IMG/VR virus record: IMGVR_UViG_3300022413_000021
Location: 1-40,948 of that record
Source: a virus
Length of the DNA: 40,948 nucleotides
Direction: 5' to 3' (one strand)
Positions 281 through 39,711 of the stretch are shown piece by piece. The notes under the pieces are model-generated. The model saw only the letters and a list, made by a program, of their open reading frames with translations. It ran no database searches and had not been told where the DNA came from. Position 1 is the first letter of the stretch. The number at the start of each line of letters is the position of its first letter. The position numbers and the translations under genes are program-made.

Positions 281-309
281 AGTATACCACACCCGGCGCT
301 GTCTGTCAA
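281..309 (-). promoter_or_regulatory. Sigma70-type promoter, leftward
   Basis: On the minus strand TTGACA (309-304) and TATACT (286-281) are separated by 17 bases, with TG just before the -10. It lies between the helicase stop at 318 and the start of the gene at 236. The predicted transcript begins near 274 and opens with a perfect 7-bp hairpin (arms 257-263 and 270-276). With the circle closed it would feed the whole replication operon. Confidence 0.85.
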
Positions 310-4505: not shown

Positions 4506-4534
4506 ATTATAGCACACCCGGGGCCTCCTGTCAA
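4506..4534 (-). promoter_or_regulatory. Consensus sigma70 promoter, leftward
   Basis: Both elements are perfect on the minus strand: TTGACA (4534-4529) and TATAAT (4511-4506), with 17 bases between them. It is the strongest-looking promoter in the window and reads into the gene at 4482. Confidence 0.9.
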
Positions 4535-5188: not shown

Positions 5189-5217
5189 ATTGTAGCACAG
5201 CCGGGTGCCGCTGTCAA
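5189..5217 (-). promoter_or_regulatory. Sigma70-type promoter, leftward
   Basis: TTGACA (5217-5212) and TACAAT (5194-5189) on the minus strand, 17 bases apart. The predicted transcript starts near 5182 and opens with a 6-bp hairpin (arms 5164-5169 and 5174-5179). It drives the small genes 5137 to 4543. Confidence 0.82.
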
Positions 5218-6185: not shown

Positions 6186-6214
6186 ATTGTAGCACAGCGC
6201 CGCCGCCGTGTCAA
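6186..6214 (-). promoter_or_regulatory. Sigma70-type promoter, leftward
   Basis: TTGACA (6214-6209) and TACAAT (6191-6186) on the minus strand, 17 bases apart, with TGTGC before the -10. It drives the gene at 6088 through a leader of about 90 bases that is rich in GC and can fold strongly. It is the left arm of the divergent promoter pair with 6543-6572. Confidence 0.82.
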
Positions 6215-11641: not shown

Positions 11642-11916
11642 TAGCTTTCGATTGTTGGCAATGTGGGGCTTGTTGTCGATTTGTTGGGTTTATCGATCCC
11701 TCCCTTGACCGGGGGGATCGAGCCTGCATTCATTTGGGTCAAAATGGCCATCGCTACTATTGCGATATCTATGATGATCGGCCTGATTTTTGTCGCCTTG
11801 ATCCTAAAGTACCGGAGGAACTGCAGGAGAAATGGTGCAAATTCCAGGAGAAAAATTGGCCTGTTCAGGTTGAGGAGCAGGAGATAAGACGGGATATCCA
11901 CCTTAGAAGGGGTTGA
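11641..11916 (+). CDS. YkgJ-like cysteine-cluster protein, apparent ATA start
   Basis: A 91-residue frame reading AFDCWQCGACCRFVGF and, further on, YYCDIYDDRPDFCR. This is the CxxCxxCC plus C-x-IY-x-x-RPxxCR pattern of the YkgJ family, predicted zinc or iron chelators. No ATG, GTG or TTG occurs upstream of the cysteines before an in-frame TGA at 11605. The codon just before AFDCW is ATA, and it shares its first base with the scaffold stop in a TAATA arrangement that mirrors the TAATG couplings elsewhere in this genome. Reinitiation at ATA is the simplest reading; a -1 frameshift from the scaffold gene or a sequencing change are alternatives. Its role in the virion is unknown. Confidence 0.7.
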   Translation: MAFDCWQCGACCRFVGFIDPSLDRGDRACIHLGQNGHRYYCDIYDDRPDFCRLDPKVPEELQEKWCKFQEKNWPVQVEEQEIRRDIHLRRG

Positions 11917-11941
11917 CAGAGAAGCCCGGGTGTGGTATACT
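11913..11941 (+). promoter_or_regulatory. Sigma70-type promoter before the capsid gene
   Basis: TTGACA (11913-11918) and TATACT (11936-11941) with 17 bases between, and TGTGG before the -10. The -35 overlaps the stop of the cysteine-cluster gene. It gives the capsid gene its own strong promoter. The leader of about 137 bases contains a small hairpin (AGGGC/GCCCT near 12000-12015). Confidence 0.85.
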
Positions 11942-12969: not shown

Positions 12970-12995
12970 CCCGTACTTCTGGCGAAGTGTGAGTT

Positions 12996-13023
12996 GGGGT
13001 CCCGACATCGGGACCCCTTTTTT
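12996..13023 (+). terminator. Rho-independent terminator after the capsid gene
   Basis: A 10-bp stem, GGGGTCCCGA pairing with TCGGGACCCC (12996-13017), followed by six T (13018-13023). It lies 27 bases after the capsid stop and just before the ribosome site of the next gene, so downstream genes would be reached only by read-through. Confidence 0.9.
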
Positions 13024-27830: not shown

Positions 27831-29471
27831 ATGAGGTGGGTCTACCGCAGACCCGCTGATGTAATACCCCGAAAACTTCGGGCGCTGTTTTATGCGCCAC
27901 CGGGGGACAATAATGTATCCGAATTACCGAGTGATACATTAACAATTGCAGATTTTGTCCCCACTATAGTCACTACAGAGAATAATCTAAGCGTACTGGC
28001 AACAGCTTCGTTAATTCTCACAAATCTTGCGCCGACCACAGAAACTTTTGATCCGAACACTAGTCAACTGCCGAGTGATGCACTGACGATTAGTGATTTT
28101 GATCCGACTGTTGTTACAACTGATAATAATTTCAGTGAATTACCAAGTGATACATTAGTACTCGATGACTTTGACCCTCAGGCGGTTACAACTGAAAATG
28201 CGGTGTCCGAGTTACCAAGTGATACACTAACACTCGATGACTTTGACCCTCAGGCGGTTACAACTGAAAAACATATATCCGAATTGCCGAGTGATGTACT
28301 AACACTTGATGATTTTGATCCGACCGTTGTCGCGACTGATAATAATGAATCACAGTTACCGAGTGACACACTAACACTCGATGATTTTGACCCTCAGGCG
28401 GTTACAACTGAAAAACACATATCCGAATTGCCGAGTGATGTACTAACACTCGATGATTTCGATCCTCAGGCGGTCACAACTGAAAAACATATATCTCTAT
28501 TACCGAGTGATGTACTAACACTCGATGAATTTGATCCGACTATTGTTGTACCCGAGGATAATACATCACAATTACCGAGTGATACACTAACACTCGACGA
28601 TTTTGACCCAACAGTTGTTGCAACTGACAATAACTTCAGTGATTTGCCGAGTGATACACTAACACTCGATGATTTTGACCCTCAGGCGGTTACAACTGAG
28701 AACAGGGTATCCGATTTACCGAGTGATATACTAACACTTGATGATTTTGACCCTCAAGCGGTCACAACCGAAAAACACATATCCGAATTACCAAGTGATA
28801 CACTAACACTCGATGATTTTGATCCTCAGGCGGTTACAACTGAGAACAGGGTATCCGAATTACCATCCGATGTTCTTACATTAGATGACTTTGATCCGAC
28901 TATCGTTACCACTGAGTCGGATGTTAATGTCAGTGAGTTGCCGAGTGATACACTAACGCTCGATGATTTCGATCCGACCGTTGTTGCAACTGATAATAAT
29001 ATCAGTGAATTACCAAGTGATACACTAACACTCGATGATTTTGATCCAACTATCATCACTACCGGTGGTGAGTTTTCCGAGTTACCAAGTGATACACTAA
29101 CTGTAACTGGGTTTGATCCTCAGGCAATTACTACTGAGGTTGCTAATCCTAATACTAGTCAATTACCTAGTGATGCATTAACATTAACTAATAACGCCCC
29201 GGTGGCTAATGTTAGTGATCCTAATACTAGTCAATTGCCCAGTGATACTTTATCATTAGCCGATTTTGACCCACAAATAGACACTACTGAGGTTGCTAAT
29301 CCCAACACCAGTCAATTACCTAGCAAGGTATTGACGCTAACCAATAATGCTCCAGAAATCTTTGTGAGTGAAACCGATCAAAATGATGTGCTCTTGCCAG
29401 CGGCTAGTTTGACTTTAACAGCACACCCGATTTCAATAATTACTCAAAGACGAATAATCGTAATTTCATAG
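27831..29471 (+). CDS. Virion protein with about twenty 24-residue LPSDTLTL repeats
   Basis: A 546-residue protein made almost entirely of tandem 24-residue units with the core S-E-L-P-S-D-T-L-T-L-D-D-F-D-P, ending in T-T-E/D-N. A 29-residue basic N-terminus (MRWVYRRPADVIPRKLRALF) precedes the array. The last units diverge (LTNNAPV, PNTSQLPS). Hydrophobic positions alternate, which suggests a beta-rich stalk or solenoid. Related LTLTxxAP repeats occur in phage structural proteins of unknown function. It is probably a tail-associated or host-adhesion protein. No good ribosome site is seen; translation is probably coupled to the previous gene. Confidence 0.85.
   Translation: MRWVYRRPADVIPRKLRALFYAPPGDNNVSELPSDTLTIADFVPTIVTTENNLSVLATASLILTNLAPTTETFDPNTSQLPSDALTISDFDPTVVTTDNNFSELPSDTLVLDDFDPQAVTTENAVSELPSDTLTLDDFDPQAVTTEKHISELPSDVLTLDDFDPTVVATDNNESQLPSDTLTLDDFDPQAVTTEKHISELPSDVLTLDDFDPQAVTTEKHISLLPSDVLTLDEFDPTIVVPEDNTSQLPSDTLTLDDFDPTVVATDNNFSDLPSDTLTLDDFDPQAVTTENRVSDLPSDILTLDDFDPQAVTTEKHISELPSDTLTLDDFDPQAVTTENRVSELPSDVLTLDDFDPTIVTTESDVNVSELPSDTLTLDDFDPTVVATDNNISELPSDTLTLDDFDPTIITTGGEFSELPSDTLTVTGFDPQAITTEVANPNTSQLPSDALTLTNNAPVANVSDPNTSQLPSDTLSLADFDPQIDTTEVANPNTSQLPSKVLTLTNNAPEIFVSETDQNDVLLPAASLTLTAHPISIITQRRIIVIS
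27918..29390 (+). repeat. Tandem 72-bp coding repeats
   Basis: About twenty in-frame units of 72 bp (a few of 78-81 bp). Central units are nearly identical at the DNA level, with recurring words GAGTGATACACTAACACTCG and CCTCAGGCGGTTACAACTGA. Outer units diverge. The pattern is one of recent unit duplication and conversion. It is coding and not CRISPR: there are no unique spacers. Confidence 0.92.
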
Positions 29472-33112: not shown

Positions 33113-33610
33113 TTAGGTTATCACTTCCTTTGAAGGTAATATTAGTTTTGAGGATTCGTCGGGATTCTGACCATTGGACTGCGGTGAGTCCACAATCAAG
33201 TAGGTCCCCAGGAATTGGACAAGTTCTCCAATGTCTATTTTGTCCTCCCATACCATTACTCCTGCTTCTAACCAATCGGTAATTTTAGTTGTGTGCACAA
33301 GGGCAGGTACGTTCGTACCCGCAACCAACACGTATCCCCGCTTTCCACGAATAAGAGCTTGTGCCAAGAGCCACGGCTGTCCAAGAGCTTTAACTCTTTT
33401 TCTGAACCATCCGGATTGAGCAGGACGGAGGCGTAATCCGCGCTTCTCACTATCCGTAAATTTGAGTTCAAGATGGTTCGAATATCCTCTAATACAATAG
33501 TTGACGTCAGGAGTTCCGACAGCTGTTTCATGACTTTCAATCCTCTCAAAATGGCCATAGGGCCTAAGTTTAGGCCCCAGATAATCCCACATTTTCTTTT
33601 CGCCGCTCAT
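33113..33610 (-). CDS. PD-(D/E)XK (VRR-NUC-like) endonuclease
   Basis: A 165-residue protein with a nuclease core near the N-terminus: an early acidic residue (ESHE, 24-28), GTPDV (residues 32-36) and LELKF (47-51), the D...ExK catalytic set of VRR-NUC and related phage nucleases. RPAQSGWFRKRVKALG (62-77) is the usual following helix. It probably acts as a structure-specific nuclease in replication or recombination (inference). ATGA overlap with datZ makes it the last gene of the Z operon, so it is expressed with the nucleotide enzymes. Confidence 0.86.
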   Translation of the reverse strand: MSGEKKMWDYLGPKLRPYGHFERIESHETAVGTPDVNYCIRGYSNHLELKFTDSEKRGLRLRPAQSGWFRKRVKALGQPWLLAQALIRGKRGYVLVAGTNVPALVHTTKITDWLEAGVMVWEDKIDIGELVQFLGTYLIVDSPQSNGQNPDESSKLILPSKEVIT

Positions 33611-34107
33611 ATTAAAAAATCCTCTGATAACATTTGCATCTGTACATCCAACGCAGCTTCGCGAATGTTGTCCGGTATGGATTCAGAGCGCACATATTCG
33701 TTGTACGCCTCGGCCATCGTTTCGTACACTCTATTCGAATGAGGCCCCAAGGCGTAAAGCCACAGCCAATAGAGGTCGGCCAGTTTGTCTGCCAATTGGA
33801 TAACAAGCGCCTCATCGCTCGTAATTTCTCGGCCTGTGACAGATTTGTAGAGTTCATTAAGTTCCCAGCCATTCTCCCTAGCCCGAGCTTTAGTAGGAGT
33901 TGGTATGTCTCCCGTAACGATTTCATCGAGGTCGTGCAAGAGGGCTGCTTTGATGATTTCATAATCGTCTATTCCCGCAACTTTGGCGATCGCCCGGGCG
34001 ATCATTACTACGTCGAACGTATGCTCTGCCAGTGACTGTGGCCGCACCATCCGGACTATGTGCCATCGGGTGACGCCGGATGCGCGTAAAATATCATTAA
34101 TCTTCAT
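33607..34107 (-). CDS. datZ: DatZ-like HD-domain dATP triphosphohydrolase
   Basis: A 166-residue HD-domain protein. The metal-binding set is visible: H29 in QSLAEHT, H58-D59 in LLHDLDE, and D107 in LADKLAD. R14-W15 precedes it, as in YfbR-like and DatZ enzymes, where the tryptophan region binds the base. DatZ from cyanophage S-2L removes dATP so that adenine cannot enter phage DNA. The close link to purZ and mazZ supports this over a general YfbR nucleotidase. The ATG at 34107 has GGAG upstream and overlaps the end of mazZ by 11 bases. The dATP specificity itself is inferred from context. Confidence 0.88.
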   Translation of the reverse strand: MKINDILRASGVTRWHIVRMVRPQSLAEHTFDVVMIARAIAKVAGIDDYEIIKAALLHDLDEIVTGDIPTPTKARARENGWELNELYKSVTGREITSDEALVIQLADKLADLYWLWLYALGPHSNRVYETMAEAYNEYVRSESIPDNIREAALDVQMQMLSEDFLI

Positions 34108-34411
34108 GTTGTAGTACTCCGTGTGTATATTTCCAAGTTCTCTGGCGATTTATGGCCATTTTTTCTTTTATTGCTGTAAGTGGGTCTATGCCAGACATTA
34201 CACATACATCCAGTGCAAGTATGAGTACATCGGCAATCTCTCCTGGGTCTACTTTGCCTGTTTCTCTAACACATCGCCACAATTCCGGCACTTCTTCCAT
34301 CGATAATTTTTTAATGGCATCAGCTGCAGTTCGATTGGGTATTACTTCATCCGCCCATTCCATTATTTCATTAGCGATCCTTGCCATATCATTAACTTCA
34401 AAGTCTGACAT
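34097..34411 (-). CDS. mazZ: MazZ-like (MazG family) (d)NTP pyrophosphohydrolase
   Basis: A 104-residue protein with the MazG metal-binding motif: E39-E40-x-x-E43 and E58-x-x-D61, spaced as usual, followed by LILALDVC. In Z-genome phages MazZ turns dGTP (or GTP) into the monophosphate and so supplies dGMP to PurZ. The start is taken as the ATG at 34411, which overlaps the purZ stop (TAATG); the frame extends to 34456, but without a ribosome site. Genes on both sides are of the same pathway. A housekeeping MazG is possible but unlikely here. Confidence 0.88.
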   Translation of the reverse strand: MSDFEVNDMARIANEIMEWADEVIPNRTAADAIKKLSMEEVPELWRCVRETGKVDPGEIADVLILALDVCVMSGIDPLTAIKEKMAINRQRTWKYTHGVLQHED

Positions 34412-35463
34412 TATACTAACCCCACATCGTGGTAACTTGGGCCAAAGCCGACCCAACGTACTTCACTAAATTCGTCAATATGGGCTACGATCTGTGTCAC
34501 ATAGTCCCTTTCAACGTAGTTGGCAAAGTTGAGGAAGACCAGATCAGGTTGGCACCACCAACAAGCCTCCTCTATCTGCATTTTACTGTAAGTAAAGATG
34601 CGGCGTTCGCGGTTGGTGACCGTTGTTCGTTCCGGTACTAAGTCTAATTCCTCCCAGCTTAGCTCGTCCTGATCCGCGTAACAGTCGCCACTACTTCCCC
34701 CAACTCTTATCGGAAGGGTTCTGCAAGTGCCGACAACCATATCAAGCATCCCAAGGGGTATGCCCATGTTAGAGAGAAAGGCCGCAGGTCCGCAATCACG
34801 ACTGGTGGTATAGGGATAGAAATGGGAGTTTATCCCGAGACTGAATCCCTGCGACCCTTCTGCAAGTATGCCCTGACTTGATTCAAGGCGGATTTGCCAC
34901 TCTCCGTGGCTACAAACGTACTGCTCAAATTCGGTGCCCTTAAGGATTTGTTTAGCGGTAACGGGCTTTGTCCGCATCATCTTATCACACACAGCGGCGG
35001 CTGAACCTTGTTTAGTACTGCCTATGTGGGTCAAATCACCCTCCGCTTGAATATGATCCGGTGCTAATACTGTGGCGTTAGGGTGGATACGTAATACTTG
35101 ATCCTGTCGAAGCCACGCCATTTCCTCAGTTAACCTACCGAGTCTAAATACTGACCCCGGGCCGATTAATACCTGCTTGATATTTGACCCGACAAAACTT
35201 GCTGGTAGTACCTTTGTGATGAACTTGGACCCACTGGAGTCGATATAAGTATGACCCGCATTTGGCATGTTCGCCGTGATGCAGGTATCGTAGTCTCCAG
35301 TTTCTGCCAAATACCCGCAGATAAGGCCCTTTCCTGTGCTGCCGAACTGTAGATCAAGGACTAGATCAACTTTCGGTTGTAAAGAGCTTGAGCGCCGGGA
35401 CTTTATAACGCCAGACTCTAACTCCACCCTGTTTTGGCCTTGGACGGTGCTTGATAAAACCAT
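34411..35463 (-). CDS. purZ: PurZ, adenylosuccinate synthetase-like 2-aminoadenine synthase
   Basis: A 350-residue PurA homologue, the length of PurZ and shorter than the usual bacterial PurA of about 430. The P-loop region reads QFGSTGKG (residues 39-46), where PurA has QWGDEGKG: the catalytic Asp is Ser and the following Glu is Thr. This change marks PurZ, which joins dGMP and aspartate to form the precursor of 2-aminoadenine nucleotide. The NAGHT motif with the second catalytic His is kept (near 67-71). The GSTKQGSAAAVCDKM stretch (about 148-162) is the nucleotide-binding part. The ATG at 35463 lies inside the PrimPol gene (98-base overlap) with AAGG upstream; GTG at 35427 is an alternative start. 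A clear call by motif and context. Confidence 0.94.
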   Translation of the reverse strand: MVLSSTVQGQNRVELESGVIKSRRSSSLQPKVDLVLDLQFGSTGKGLICGYLAETGDYDTCITANMPNAGHTYIDSSGSKFITKVLPASFVGSNIKQVLIGPGSVFRLGRLTEEMAWLRQDQVLRIHPNATVLAPDHIQAEGDLTHIGSTKQGSAAAVCDKMMRTKPVTAKQILKGTEFEQYVCSHGEWQIRLESSQGILAEGSQGFSLGINSHFYPYTTSRDCGPAAFLSNMGIPLGMLDMVVGTCRTLPIRVGGSSGDCYADQDELSWEELDLVPERTTVTNRERRIFTYSKMQIEEACWWCQPDLVFLNFANYVERDYVTQIVAHIDEFSEVRWVGFGPSYHDVGLV

Positions 35464-37564
35464 AACTTTCTACCTTTTTATAAAAATGTGCCACTCCCTT
35501 CGATCTTAAGCCCTTTTGATTGCCAAGCCAAGTGTCGTAGGATTCAAATAACGCCATTCTTTCGACGTCCGTTGGCCATCCCCCGTCACCATCAACGTCA
35601 GGGACCCCCAAATCTTGTTTAGCCAGGCATCGATCCATCCAAATATCAACTGAATCGCCGGTGGCTCTGTATATTGCACGTTGTTGCTCGAGGCCTTTTG
35701 TCTCGATCGCTTTGTTCAAGTTTGAAGTAATGCGGCGCTGCATTAGATCAAACATCATTGCTCCGTACCCTCCGGATTCCATTTGTTCATATAGCGCGTC
35801 GAAGTACGACCGTTTATTTGCATATTTATCGGAGACCTCCAATACAAGCCATCGTCTACTTTCCGGGCCAGCAGGTATGAACCAGTCCTCATTACTGGCC
35901 ACCACAAGCCGCGCTCTATTGTCATACATAAAGCTATCGACGCCCTTTCGTTCACATACAAGCTGCTTCTCCGTGACCATCGATTTAAGTATTCCAGCTG
36001 TGCTGCGCGAACCGCCATAAACTACCTCGTCTGCAAATACTAATAACCCATCCATTAGGTGATAGTTAAAATTGCCAGTTAAGTGACGGTCATTCGTCAC
36101 GTGTTTATAATGAGCTTTGCCCACCAATCGACCCACCATTTCGCAGAAGGTACCTTTACCGGTGCCCTCCTTGCCATGCATCACTATTGCGGTGCCCTTT
36201 GGCTCCATTGGGTCTTGCAGGATGTCGGCCACCCAATCAAGGACAAACGTGTACAATTTTTCATCACCCCCACACAATATCTCTTTGATGTGGTTGTCGA
36301 ACATTTGCCAATTGCCCTCTTTGGGTTCGCACCCCCAACCTTGCCATAAATTAACGTATCCATCGTGCCACAAATCTTCATTTGGGAAAAAGCCCATGCC
36401 CATAATGCACTCTCGGCGTTCAGGTGCTGCCATCCAAATATCGGCTTCTGTAACGGTTGCCACCCCTTTGCCCTTGGGTATAGTCACTTTTCGGTTGTAC
36501 ATTAGGGTGTTAAAATCCTGTGTCCCCATTATATGGATTCCACCCCTATCGTCCCTATGAACTATCCTAACCTTTCCTCCAGTAAGAAGTATGGCGTTGT
36601 TATGATTAAGCCGCTCGATGATTTCTTCGAAGTCGCCACTTCTTGCGGGGTCAGCAATTGAGTTATATCCGCCTTGCTTAGCGAAATATATAAGCGATCC
36701 CATTCGTATGGTACCAGCGGGAGAAAACCCTGTCCAACGCTTATGACACTCACCGGCAACATACCGCTCACCATTAGCCGACCAAGCGTCCCAACATTCG
36801 AGACCGTCTTTATTCGGGTGTTGGCTATTGATCGCTTGGCCGATAAATAACCACTCCTCGTAAGAGCAAATGTTGGGGTCAATATGGTCCAACATAGCGG
36901 TAATCTGTGTAATGGTGTATTGTCGTTCTTCATCGGTTTCCCCTACCTCTTCGTTGCCGCGCCCGGGTTTAGAAAACCAAGGTACCCCCATCGCGTCGGA
37001 CACCCACTGTGGTGTGTCGGGTACCTCACCCCCCTCCACCCAGCTATACGAACCATCCGGGGTTTCGCTGGGCCAACAGACGATGTGCGACCGGCCTATC
37101 CCGTCGCCTCCTCGGGTGTCGACACCCGGCCCGAGCTTCCCGGACGACGATGTGAGGTTTTCCCGCCACCCAGTGAGTAAATGTCGACCCCCAGTCGGGG
37201 TCTGCTGCGTGGGGCAAACTAGCTCCTTATCCTTAGTCAGTTCGGCCCAAGTTTCTAGCCCATTTGCCCGGCCATGCAGGTCAAGATCAACTGCAAATAC
37301 ACCTTCATCCCGCCCACATACAATGCCTAAGTTCCAACCCCGATACTTACCACCTTCCCCGAACCACTTATCCATGGTGCTAGGCTTACTACTACAAGAT
37401 TGGTAATTAATGCCTGATCGTTTATCAGGTAGGATTTTAGAATTTGGCCTTAAAGGCACCACGTGTATTCCTGCTCTTGCGTATAGCAAGGCGGCTTGGT
37501 GCATCCTTGTATTGAAATCTTCTATACGGTCAATGTCCCGTATCTCGTTAATCGGTAACAGCAC
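35366..37564 (-). CDS. PrimPol (AEP) primase-polymerase fused to SF3 helicase
   Basis: A 732-residue replication protein. Residues about 25-190 are a bifunctional primase/polymerase domain: VDLDLHG (near 93) gives the DxD metal site and TPTGGRH (near 122) the second motif. A PriCT-2-like linker follows near 215-300 (ITQITAMLDHIDP, SYEEWLFIGQAI). The C-terminal part is an SF3/D5-type helicase with Walker A GKEGTGKGT near 463-471, then a Walker B-like LLVFADEVVYGG, and a sensor ASNEDWFIPAG. It would prime and perhaps extend DNA. Cyanophage S-2L uses a PrimPol in its Z-genome system. The start is GTG at 37564 with GAGGGG upstream; it overlaps the polymerase end by 17 bases. Confidence 0.93.
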   Translation of the reverse strand: MLLPINEIRDIDRIEDFNTRMHQAALLYARAGIHVVPLRPNSKILPDKRSGINYQSCSSKPSTMDKWFGEGGKYRGWNLGIVCGRDEGVFAVDLDLHGRANGLETWAELTKDKELVCPTQQTPTGGRHLLTGWRENLTSSSGKLGPGVDTRGGDGIGRSHIVCWPSETPDGSYSWVEGGEVPDTPQWVSDAMGVPWFSKPGRGNEEVGETDEERQYTITQITAMLDHIDPNICSYEEWLFIGQAINSQHPNKDGLECWDAWSANGERYVAGECHKRWTGFSPAGTIRMGSLIYFAKQGGYNSIADPARSGDFEEIIERLNHNNAILLTGGKVRIVHRDDRGGIHIMGTQDFNTLMYNRKVTIPKGKGVATVTEADIWMAAPERRECIMGMGFFPNEDLWHDGYVNLWQGWGCEPKEGNWQMFDNHIKEILCGGDEKLYTFVLDWVADILQDPMEPKGTAIVMHGKEGTGKGTFCEMVGRLVGKAHYKHVTNDRHLTGNFNYHLMDGLLVFADEVVYGGSRSTAGILKSMVTEKQLVCERKGVDSFMYDNRARLVVASNEDWFIPAGPESRRWLVLEVSDKYANKRSYFDALYEQMESGGYGAMMFDLMQRRITSNLNKAIETKGLEQQRAIYRATGDSVDIWMDRCLAKQDLGVPDVDGDGGWPTDVERMALFESYDTWLGNQKGLRSKGVAHFYKKVESYGFIKHRPRPKQGGVRVWRYKVPALKLFTTES

Positions 37565-39389
37565 CCTCTATCCCCTCGTTCTTTAATGCGGACCACCAGT
37601 TCCGCCCAACTCCATTTAAATCAAGCAATAGCGGGACGCCTAAAAATTCCCGCTCTATCGCTCCCTTAATATTTTTCTTTATCTCCTCCAATGTATCGAT
37701 GTCAACCGATTGGCTATAGCTGTCATGTGTATTAAGGACTATTCGCCCTTTCCCATCTAATGCCTCGTCAATTAGGCACCAATTTTCTTTATTAATATCG
37801 GCTGATGTGGCTTGGATAAGGATGCCCGAAGCTTTGTAAGCTTTGTACTTTTTGGGGAATCGAATGTGGCGTCCATACTTGGTACGCAGGTATCCTCGTC
37901 GTTTAGCGATCTTAGTAGCCGTTTCAGCCAGTTTTCGTACCCCCCGTACTTTAGCATGGTACTGGTCGATAATTCGATATGCATCGTTACCTGCACGTTG
38001 ATATTTGATCGTTTCTCCCCACTCATCAGTAAACTCCGCATCTTCTGTCTTAAGGCCCATTTTAGCCGCTGTGGCTCCCGGGCCTTGGCTAAAAATCATG
38101 CTAAGATTTAATTGCTTAGCGTTAGGTTCGCCCCCATACTCTGCATTACGCTTAAGCCCAGTAAGTTCGGACACAAGCTCATGGAAATCTAGACTAGGGT
38201 CTTTCTGATAGAGTCTAACGAGATAGTCGTTATACATTCCGACCAAGGCCGCGAATACTCTAACTTCGAAGCTAGCCAAGTCGTAGTCCAACCAAACTTG
38301 CCCGTCGTCCGGTAAAAAGCATGGCTTAACAATACTCGCTGTAATCTTATCGCGTGAGGGTATTTGTTGCATAGCTGGGTCAACATAAGATAGCCGACCC
38401 CATTTAGTGCCACCTGTCTCGCGTACGGTTTGATTAATAGTGGGGTACACCCGATCGCCAATGGCATGTTCAAGGATGTGCTTGGCCAAAAACGTGTCAC
38501 GGGTCTTAAGAGCGGATCGAATGTTGGTAACCATGCGCGCCCGTGGGTCGAATTCGGCAAGTTCTTCAAGATACTCCTTTCGAAAGCTGGGCGCTCCCTT
38601 ATCTGTTGTCCCAATACGCATCTTACCGACCCACCAGCCTGAGTTGGTCTTGGTCGGGTCAAATAACTTAATCATCTGCGGGCCGGAGTTAACGTTAAAC
38701 TCCCACCCAGCCATTTTGTTCATTTCTTGCTTGAGGTTGTTGATATGGGGCGTCATTGCCACCATAGCCCGATGGGCCTCGTCTAAGTCAACTCGTATAC
38801 CCTCCATTTGGGATCGAATGATGACCGGCATGCAACGACGCTCGAGTCTTTCGATGCGCTCAAGTCCCATCCGATCAATTTCACTTCGCTGCCACTCCCA
38901 CAGTTCAAGCGTGAGCACAGCATCCTCCAATGCATACTCCGCTGCTTCCTCGTAGGGGAGTTCACTGATCTGTTCAATGTCAATCTCCAGTTTACCCTTG
39001 CCTAAGTATTTGCGGCAGAGATAGTCTAGATTATAGCCCCCAGGCTTTTTATGCTTATTCCATGGAAATTTGGACGCTTCATGCTCATTGATCAGACAAG
39101 CACGTACAACCGTGTCATCTAATAAATGCAGGGGGATGTTGATCCCGGCGACAGCCGACATACACGCGTCAAAAGGCGCGTTATGGCAAATGATCCTTAC
39201 ATCCGGTCCTAAGTGGCCCATGCTGTCATTCAGCCATTGTATCGCTTGCGGCTGCCGCCGGAAATCGAAGTACCACGAATCACCGGGTACGGCTATTGAG
39301 CAGGCAAATGCCTTATCAAGTGGATAGCGTAACCCGGTTGTCTCTGTATCGTACGCAAAGTACGGGTAACGAGACAGATCGGGGTACAT
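37548..39389 (-). CDS. Family A DNA polymerase with 3'-5' exonuclease (DpoZ-like)
   Basis: A 613-residue replicative polymerase without a 5' nuclease domain. Exonuclease motifs: YDTETTG (residues 13-19), HNAPFDA near 70-76 and YALEDAV near 150-156. Polymerase motifs: A is WLDYDLASFEVR (near 365-376), B is KQLNLSMIFSQGPG (near 420-435), C is NTHDSYS (near 552-558), where the usual His-Asp-Glu ends in Ser rather than Glu. In phiVC8-type phages the family A enzyme DpoZ favours Z over A; whether this one does cannot be told from sequence. ATG at 39389 in TAATG overlap with the SSB-tip gene. Confidence 0.93.
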   Translation of the reverse strand: MYPDLSRYPYFAYDTETTGLRYPLDKAFACSIAVPGDSWYFDFRRQPQAIQWLNDSMGHLGPDVRIICHNAPFDACMSAVAGINIPLHLLDDTVVRACLINEHEASKFPWNKHKKPGGYNLDYLCRKYLGKGKLEIDIEQISELPYEEAAEYALEDAVLTLELWEWQRSEIDRMGLERIERLERRCMPVIIRSQMEGIRVDLDEAHRAMVAMTPHINNLKQEMNKMAGWEFNVNSGPQMIKLFDPTKTNSGWWVGKMRIGTTDKGAPSFRKEYLEELAEFDPRARMVTNIRSALKTRDTFLAKHILEHAIGDRVYPTINQTVRETGGTKWGRLSYVDPAMQQIPSRDKITASIVKPCFLPDDGQVWLDYDLASFEVRVFAALVGMYNDYLVRLYQKDPSLDFHELVSELTGLKRNAEYGGEPNAKQLNLSMIFSQGPGATAAKMGLKTEDAEFTDEWGETIKYQRAGNDAYRIIDQYHAKVRGVRKLAETATKIAKRRGYLRTKYGRHIRFPKKYKAYKASGILIQATSADINKENWCLIDEALDGKGRIVLNTHDSYSQSVDIDTLEEIKKNIKGAIEREFLGVPLLLDLNGVGRNWWSALKNEGIEGAVTD

Positions 39390-39658: not shown

Positions 39659-39682
39659 TTCTAGCTCCTGTGTGAGTAAAGT

Positions 39683-39704
39683 GGGGTCCCGGTATCGGGA
39701 CCCC
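39683..39704. repeat. Perfect GGGGTCCCG/CGGGACCCC hairpin inside the replication operon
   Basis: A 9-bp perfect stem with a 4-base loop between the gene at 39712 and the SSB-tip gene. On the minus strand, the direction of transcription, no T-run follows, so it may be a processing or partial termination structure that sets the ratio of the first gene to the rest. Confidence 0.6.
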
Positions 39705-39711
39705 AAATCAA

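Follow-up and report, generated by a model that had tools for sequence, protein, structure and literature searches.

A Z-cluster predicted to make 2-aminoadenine DNA in an uncultivated podovirus related to phiVC8 and ZP6

The window analysed here is a stretch of 40,948 nucleotides (IMG/VR record IMGVR_UViG_3300022413_000021, positions 1 to 40,948). It contains a longer operon with the gene order DpoZ, PrimPol, PurZ, MazZ, DatZ and VRR-type nuclease, which matches the order found in phiVC8, ZP6, Vibrio phage 23E28.1 and BUCT555 (Table 1). The sequence-only reading had described a leftward, overlapping purZ-mazZ-datZ trio at 33607-35463, and the open reading frames, profiles, best solved structures and residues all bore this out. 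The extent given for the cassette held for these three genes but left out DpoZ, which lies in the same operon and strengthens the case for a Z pathway. The mazZ ATG shares one base with the purZ stop codon, and datZ and mazZ overlap by 11 bases. For each of the four enzymes (PurZ, MazZ, DatZ and DpoZ), the best solved structure was a Z-pathway protein. The primase-polymerase/helicase was 44.5% identical to phiVC8 p28, and the VRR-NUC-like nuclease occupies the same position in phiVC8, ZP6 and BUCT555; the corresponding name, VRR-NUC, has been given to ORF20 of ZP6 (PMC8515928). No promoter was found within the Z operon, where the scan scored no better than shuffles.

Table 1. Positions of the features discussed in the text (in the window unless another locus is named).
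Feature	Locus	Position	Strand	Basis
dpoZ, family-A DNA polymerase with 3'-5' exonuclease	window	37548..39389	(-)	NF038380, best PDB 7pbk
Primase-polymerase/helicase between dpoZ and purZ	window	35366..37564	(-)	Prim-Pol PF09250, PriCT_2, DUF5906; phrog_1156
purZ	window	34411..35463	(-)	NF038379, best PDB 6fko/6fm1, pocket residues, tree
mazZ, MazZ-1 (S-2L) type	window	34097..34411	(-)	best PDB 7ody, residues
datZ, HD phosphohydrolase	window	33607..34107	(-)	phrog_7076, best PDB 6zpa
VRR-NUC-like nuclease after datZ	window	33113..33610	(-)	phrog_2165 (E=2.7e-19); 36% identity to phiVC8 p23
Sigma-70-type promoter, TTGACA-N17-TATACT	window	281..309	(-)	no mismatch; part of a 52-nt intergenic repeat
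Near-identical promoter-like repeats, TTGACA-N17-TATAAT/TATACT	window	281-309, 2249-2277, 4506-4534, 5189-5217, 6186-6214	(-)	
Near-identical promoter-like repeat	window	11913-11941	(+)	
ORF, probable tail or adhesion protein	window	27831-29471	(+)	72-nt tandem repeats at 27924-29353
Terminator-like hairpin GGGGTCCCGACATCGGGACCCC, inverted copies	window	12990-13022, 39678-39710		
Small gene between mazZ and nuclease	L009	7310-7609		
Small gene between mazZ and nuclease	L015	7295-7549		
Small gene between mazZ and nuclease	L017	6401-6643		

Most of the window was collinear with phiVC8 and ZP6, from the terminase and portal to the capsid and helicase. The genes occurred in the same order, with identities of 64% for the terminase (ZP6), 49-52% for the portal, 46-52% for the capsid and 40-50% for the helicase, and the replication module was shared as well. 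The break in the contig separates the helicase from the remaining replication genes, and neither terminal repeats nor circular ends were found in the window. Given this collinearity and the break at the helicase, the window most likely represents a podovirus genome that is permuted and nearly complete. The perfect sigma-70-type promoter points left, out of the start of the contig; in a circularly permuted genome, transcription from it would run into the DpoZ-PurZ-MazZ-DatZ operon. The near-identical copies of this promoter-like repeat suggest the use of host RNA polymerase. Additionally, the probable tail or adhesion protein gene carries at least 11 tandem repeats of 72 nt (24 amino acids), and the strong GC-rich hairpin GGGGTCCCGACATCGGGACCCC is present in inverted copies after the capsid gene and beside an SSB-like gene.

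The motifs that had been named for PurZ, MazZ and DatZ were all real, and the family matches were far beyond chance. PurZ matched profile NF038379 with 300.4 bits (E=1.2e-89), just reaching the cut-off of 300, while PurA profiles gave 129 bits at most; the best solved structure was phiVC8 PurZ (6fko/6fm1, E=5e-104). The important residues of the Z-pathway enzymes were taken from previous reports (PMC8342488, PMC8065100, PMC8599892) and compared in alignments with S-2L and phiVC8. In particular, the PurZ motif FGSTGKG places Ser42 at the position of E. coli PurA Asp13, and the dGMP/ATP pocket of S-2L and phiVC8 was kept throughout (N49, T132, Q190, R240, V241, T273-T276, R280, N305 and F306), with the exceptions of C204, which is Thr, and Q308, which is Asn, as in phiVC8. 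PurZ is thus predicted from its sequence to be a 2-amino-deoxyadenylosuccinate synthetase, which would convert dGMP, aspartate and ATP or dATP to dSMP.

A tree of 90 proteins placed the window PurZ within phage PurZ, apart from both PurA and PurZ0. As had been expected for a PurA homologue of the Z pathway, it fell outside ordinary PurA: together with IMG/VR loci, it formed a clade of 12 (support 99) in the part of PurZ that contains phiVC8, ZP6 and BUCT555. This tree was built by a quick method, with long outgroup branches and a small PurA outgroup (E. coli, one Acinetobacter record and two MAG copies) that contained no archaeal PurA; L109, a MAG row entered as PurA, failed to group with the other PurA. 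Is the protein instead an ordinary adenylosuccinate synthetase that raises the adenine supply, next to unrelated MazG and HD genes? PF00709 does match it, but the Ser in place of Asp13, the tree position, the score of the PurZ profile (300 bits, where the best PurA profile reached 129), and the presence of DpoZ in the same operon make this explanation extremely improbable, and residues, profiles and tree together rule out an ordinary PurA. We also looked for the PurZ0 type with its DutZ, DmtZ or DUF5664 helpers and found no match to PF18909, PF08761 or PF05014 in the window and six relatives; the absence of PF18909 is weak evidence, since this profile matched no control genome either. PurZ-like genes were also observed on contigs from MAG bins of Gottesmanbacteria, Verrucomicrobia and Alphaproteobacteria (L093, L090 and L092, respectively); these contigs are probably phage, and they hint at wider hosts.

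The true start of purZ is uncertain. The PurZ core begins near 35370, and roughly 30 codons at the 5' end of purZ run through the primase gene. An ATG located 16 codons before GSTGKG is present in ten relatives of the clade (L008-L011, L013-L017 and L019), whereas the same codon (near 35391) reads TCA in the window. This leaves GTG 35427 and ATG 35463 as the only in-frame starts; both lie within the primase gene, and PurZ may have an N-terminal extension.

MazZ contained the motifs E39-E40-x-x-E43 and E58-x-x-D61, and its best solved structure was S-2L MazZ (7ody, E=2.5e-13), while the matches to general profiles were weak (PF04447, 1.1e-4; phrog_801, 4e-8). The protein was 42% identical to S-2L MazZ and 22% identical to phiVC8 MazZ-2. 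It was the same as S-2L at all 15 tabulated metal, base and phosphate positions, including the metal ligands E35, E38, E50 and D53, the guanine contacts I56 and D60, and R83, which identifies it as MazZ-1 and not as the phiVC8-type MazZ-2. The MazZ-2 type of phiVC8 and ZP6 was considered and rejected, with identities of 22-30% and no match of the MazZ-2 profile in the window. By sequence, MazZ is a predicted dGTP pyrophosphohydrolase that would yield dGMP. Relatives of MazZ occurred in 18 of 50,697 phage records, all from phages that also have a PurZ match (Acinetobacter, Klebsiella and Stenotrophomonas phages, Pseudomonas PSA28, Salmonella PMBT28, Providencia Kokobel2, S-2L and Burkholderia Bm1), and this confinement ties the MazG protein to the Z pathway. 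Neither MazZ profile matched at several related loci in which purZ, dpoZ and datZ are present (L030, L035, L037, L039, L046, L048, L049, L052, L064 and L076), and these may use a third dGTP hydrolase.

DatZ contained R14-W15, H29, H58-D59, E62, D67 and D107 and matched the profile phrog_7076 'dATP triphosphohydrolase' (E=1.2e-30). The best solved structure by sequence was S-2L DatZ (6zpa), which was also the first match of the AlphaFold model (pLDDT 92; E=2.9e-10, TM 0.80), followed by the dAMP phosphatase YfbR. The residues that bind metal or take part in catalysis (H34, H66, D67, E70, D75, D119 and R19) and those for base and sugar specificity (W20, I22 and P79) were kept. Among the phosphate-contacting lysines, K81 was kept and K116 was replaced by Gln104. 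An alternative reading is that the HD protein acts as a YfbR-like dAMP 5'-nucleotidase and not as a dATP triphosphohydrolase, so that adenine would be removed one step further down; Pfam's best name for it is YfbR-like, YfbR was the second structural match, and the γ-phosphate Lys is Gln. We regard this as improbable, as S-2L DatZ ranked first both by sequence and by fold, and W20, I22 and the second phosphate lysine, K81, were retained. Position 116 also holds Arg, Ala, Glu or Gln in some Z-phage loci outside the clade, which makes Lys at this site less general than the original alignment had indicated and neither essential to nor decisive for the family. DatZ is expected from its sequence to remove dATP, with the caveat that a phosphate-contacting Lys of S-2L DatZ is Gln here.

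DpoZ matched NF038380 with 696.8 bits against a cut-off of 500 (E=2.2e-209), and its best solved structure was 7pbk (E=3e-182). Residues R440, L455, F459 and G548 were kept. A difference lies in the exonuclease helices E1/E2, where a 17-residue deletion leaves 18 residues in place of the 34-37 found in the other Z-phage DpoZ examined. The protein thus lacks the extended mobile helices that carry R161 and M165 in phiVC8-like DpoZ, and the model has a single short helix (138-143) at this site. Additionally, KWGR was found instead of TGR before motif A. Helix E2 of phiVC8 DpoZ contributes R161 and M165 to the exonuclease, and primer degradation by the R161A/M165A variant was not significant (PMC8599892). 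The mid-points of this variant were 342 μM dATP and 1.9 μM dZTP, compared with 449 and 15.6 before, so that Z-over-A selectivity went up in vitro (PMC8599892). Judged from its sequence, DpoZ would be expected to prefer dZTP.

These changes are among the distinguishing traits of the 12-member uncultivated clade. The cassette as such is conserved across a set of IMG/VR relatives. The E1/E2 deletion was present in nine of nine readable clade DpoZ and in none of the other Z-phage DpoZ examined, KWGR was found in eight of nine and KTGR in the ninth (L018), and, L019 apart, every clade DatZ had Gln or His at position 116. Three clade members (L009, L015 and L017) had neither DatZ nor any HD protein on their records of 29, 41 and 33 kb, respectively, and a search of these relatives for another HD dATPase found none. 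Here mazZ and the nuclease are separated by a gene for a small hydrophobic protein, which in L015 is DUF7220. Among the remaining loci that lack DatZ, all but two divergent ones (L041 and L092) stop too near purZ to be judged.

Alternatively, the Z pathway may operate with incomplete replacement: the changed DatZ and the loss of the E1/E2 helices from the polymerase would leave some adenine, and the genome would be a ZTGC/ATGC mixture. In line with this, DatZ of the window and nearly all clade DatZ carry the K116Q or Q/H change, three relatives have no DatZ or other HD protein on their records, the E1/E2 region of DpoZ is deleted, and substitution was lower in E. coli under partial expression of the Z cluster (PMC8342488). 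Such a mixture is nevertheless rather unlikely, given that DatZ keeps every metal ligand, R19, K81 and the residues that contact the base, that K116 varies in other Z-phage loci, and that R161A/M165A in helix E2 raised selectivity for Z in vitro. The clade traits suggest that choice by the polymerase weighs more here than clearance of the pool. A tentative and doubtful extension is that in this clade the polymerase has taken over the exclusion of adenine from the nucleotide pool, in which case E1/E2 loss would let DpoZ reject A while DatZ drifts (K116Q/H) and is lost or replaced in some members.

With high confidence, we read the window as DNA of an uncultivated podovirus allied to phiVC8 (Enhodamvirus) and ZP6 (Mareflavirus), with a Z-cluster that has every gene known for the pathway and would give 2-aminoadenine DNA. 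Directly seen were the genes with their families and residues, the gene order and the phylogeny. The matches to Z-pathway enzymes, the PurZ tree, DpoZ, the shared gene order and the collinearity with phiVC8 and ZP6 make a ZTGC genome very likely, as predicted from the genes; Z itself cannot be read from a sequence. Counted against this reading were the PurZ score of 300.4 against 300, the DpoZ without E1/E2, and a nearest isolate, phiVC8, that is only ~51% identical in PurZ. By analogy with characterised homologues, MazZ would convert dGTP to dGMP, which PurZ would couple to aspartate to form dSMP, and host PurB and nucleotide kinases would carry dSMP to dZTP; DatZ would deplete dATP, and during genome replication DpoZ would place dZTP opposite T, so that 2-aminoadenine would take the place of adenine. 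Judging from S-2L, phiVC8 and SH-Ab 15497, virion DNA would contain Z and would be protected against adenine-recognising nucleases.

The Z cassette itself has been known since 2021, and the pathway, the operon and a MazZ-1 in a phiVC8-type operon (BUCT555) had been described. What is new is an uncultivated clade of Z-phages and its natural DpoZ and DatZ variants; no survey describing them was found in the open-access literature searched. The DpoZ without E1/E2, the altered DatZ and the DatZ-less relatives make Z-versus-A selectivity testable on natural variants. Since the DatZ-less relatives keep PurZ, MazZ and DpoZ, a comparison could tell pool clearance from polymerase choice.

Upon comparison with known systems, the window was similar to phiVC8 in gene order, in collinear structural genes and in identity (PurZ 51%, DpoZ 48%, portal 52%), but phiVC8 has the short MazZ-2, full-length DpoZ E1/E2 and Lys at DatZ K116, in contrast to the MazZ-1 and deleted E1/E2 of the window. 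The Alteromonas phage ZP6 likewise shares the order (terminase 64%, PurZ 49%, DpoZ 50%) and differs in MazZ-2, full-length E1/E2, TGR and K116. The Stenotrophomonas phage BUCT555 has the same order with MazZ-1 (DUF550) in a phiVC8-type operon, whereas its PurZ is 47% identical, its E1/E2 and K116 are as in other Z-phages, and its DatZ W20 is Tyr. In cyanophage S-2L, purZ, mazZ and datZ are adjacent and overlapping as in the window, and the MazZ-1 pocket is identical at the tabulated positions, although its PurZ is 37% identical and S-2L has a non-selective PrimPol and no DpoZ (PMC8065100, PMC8342488). The three S-2L genes were enough to place Z in E. coli DNA (PMC8342488).
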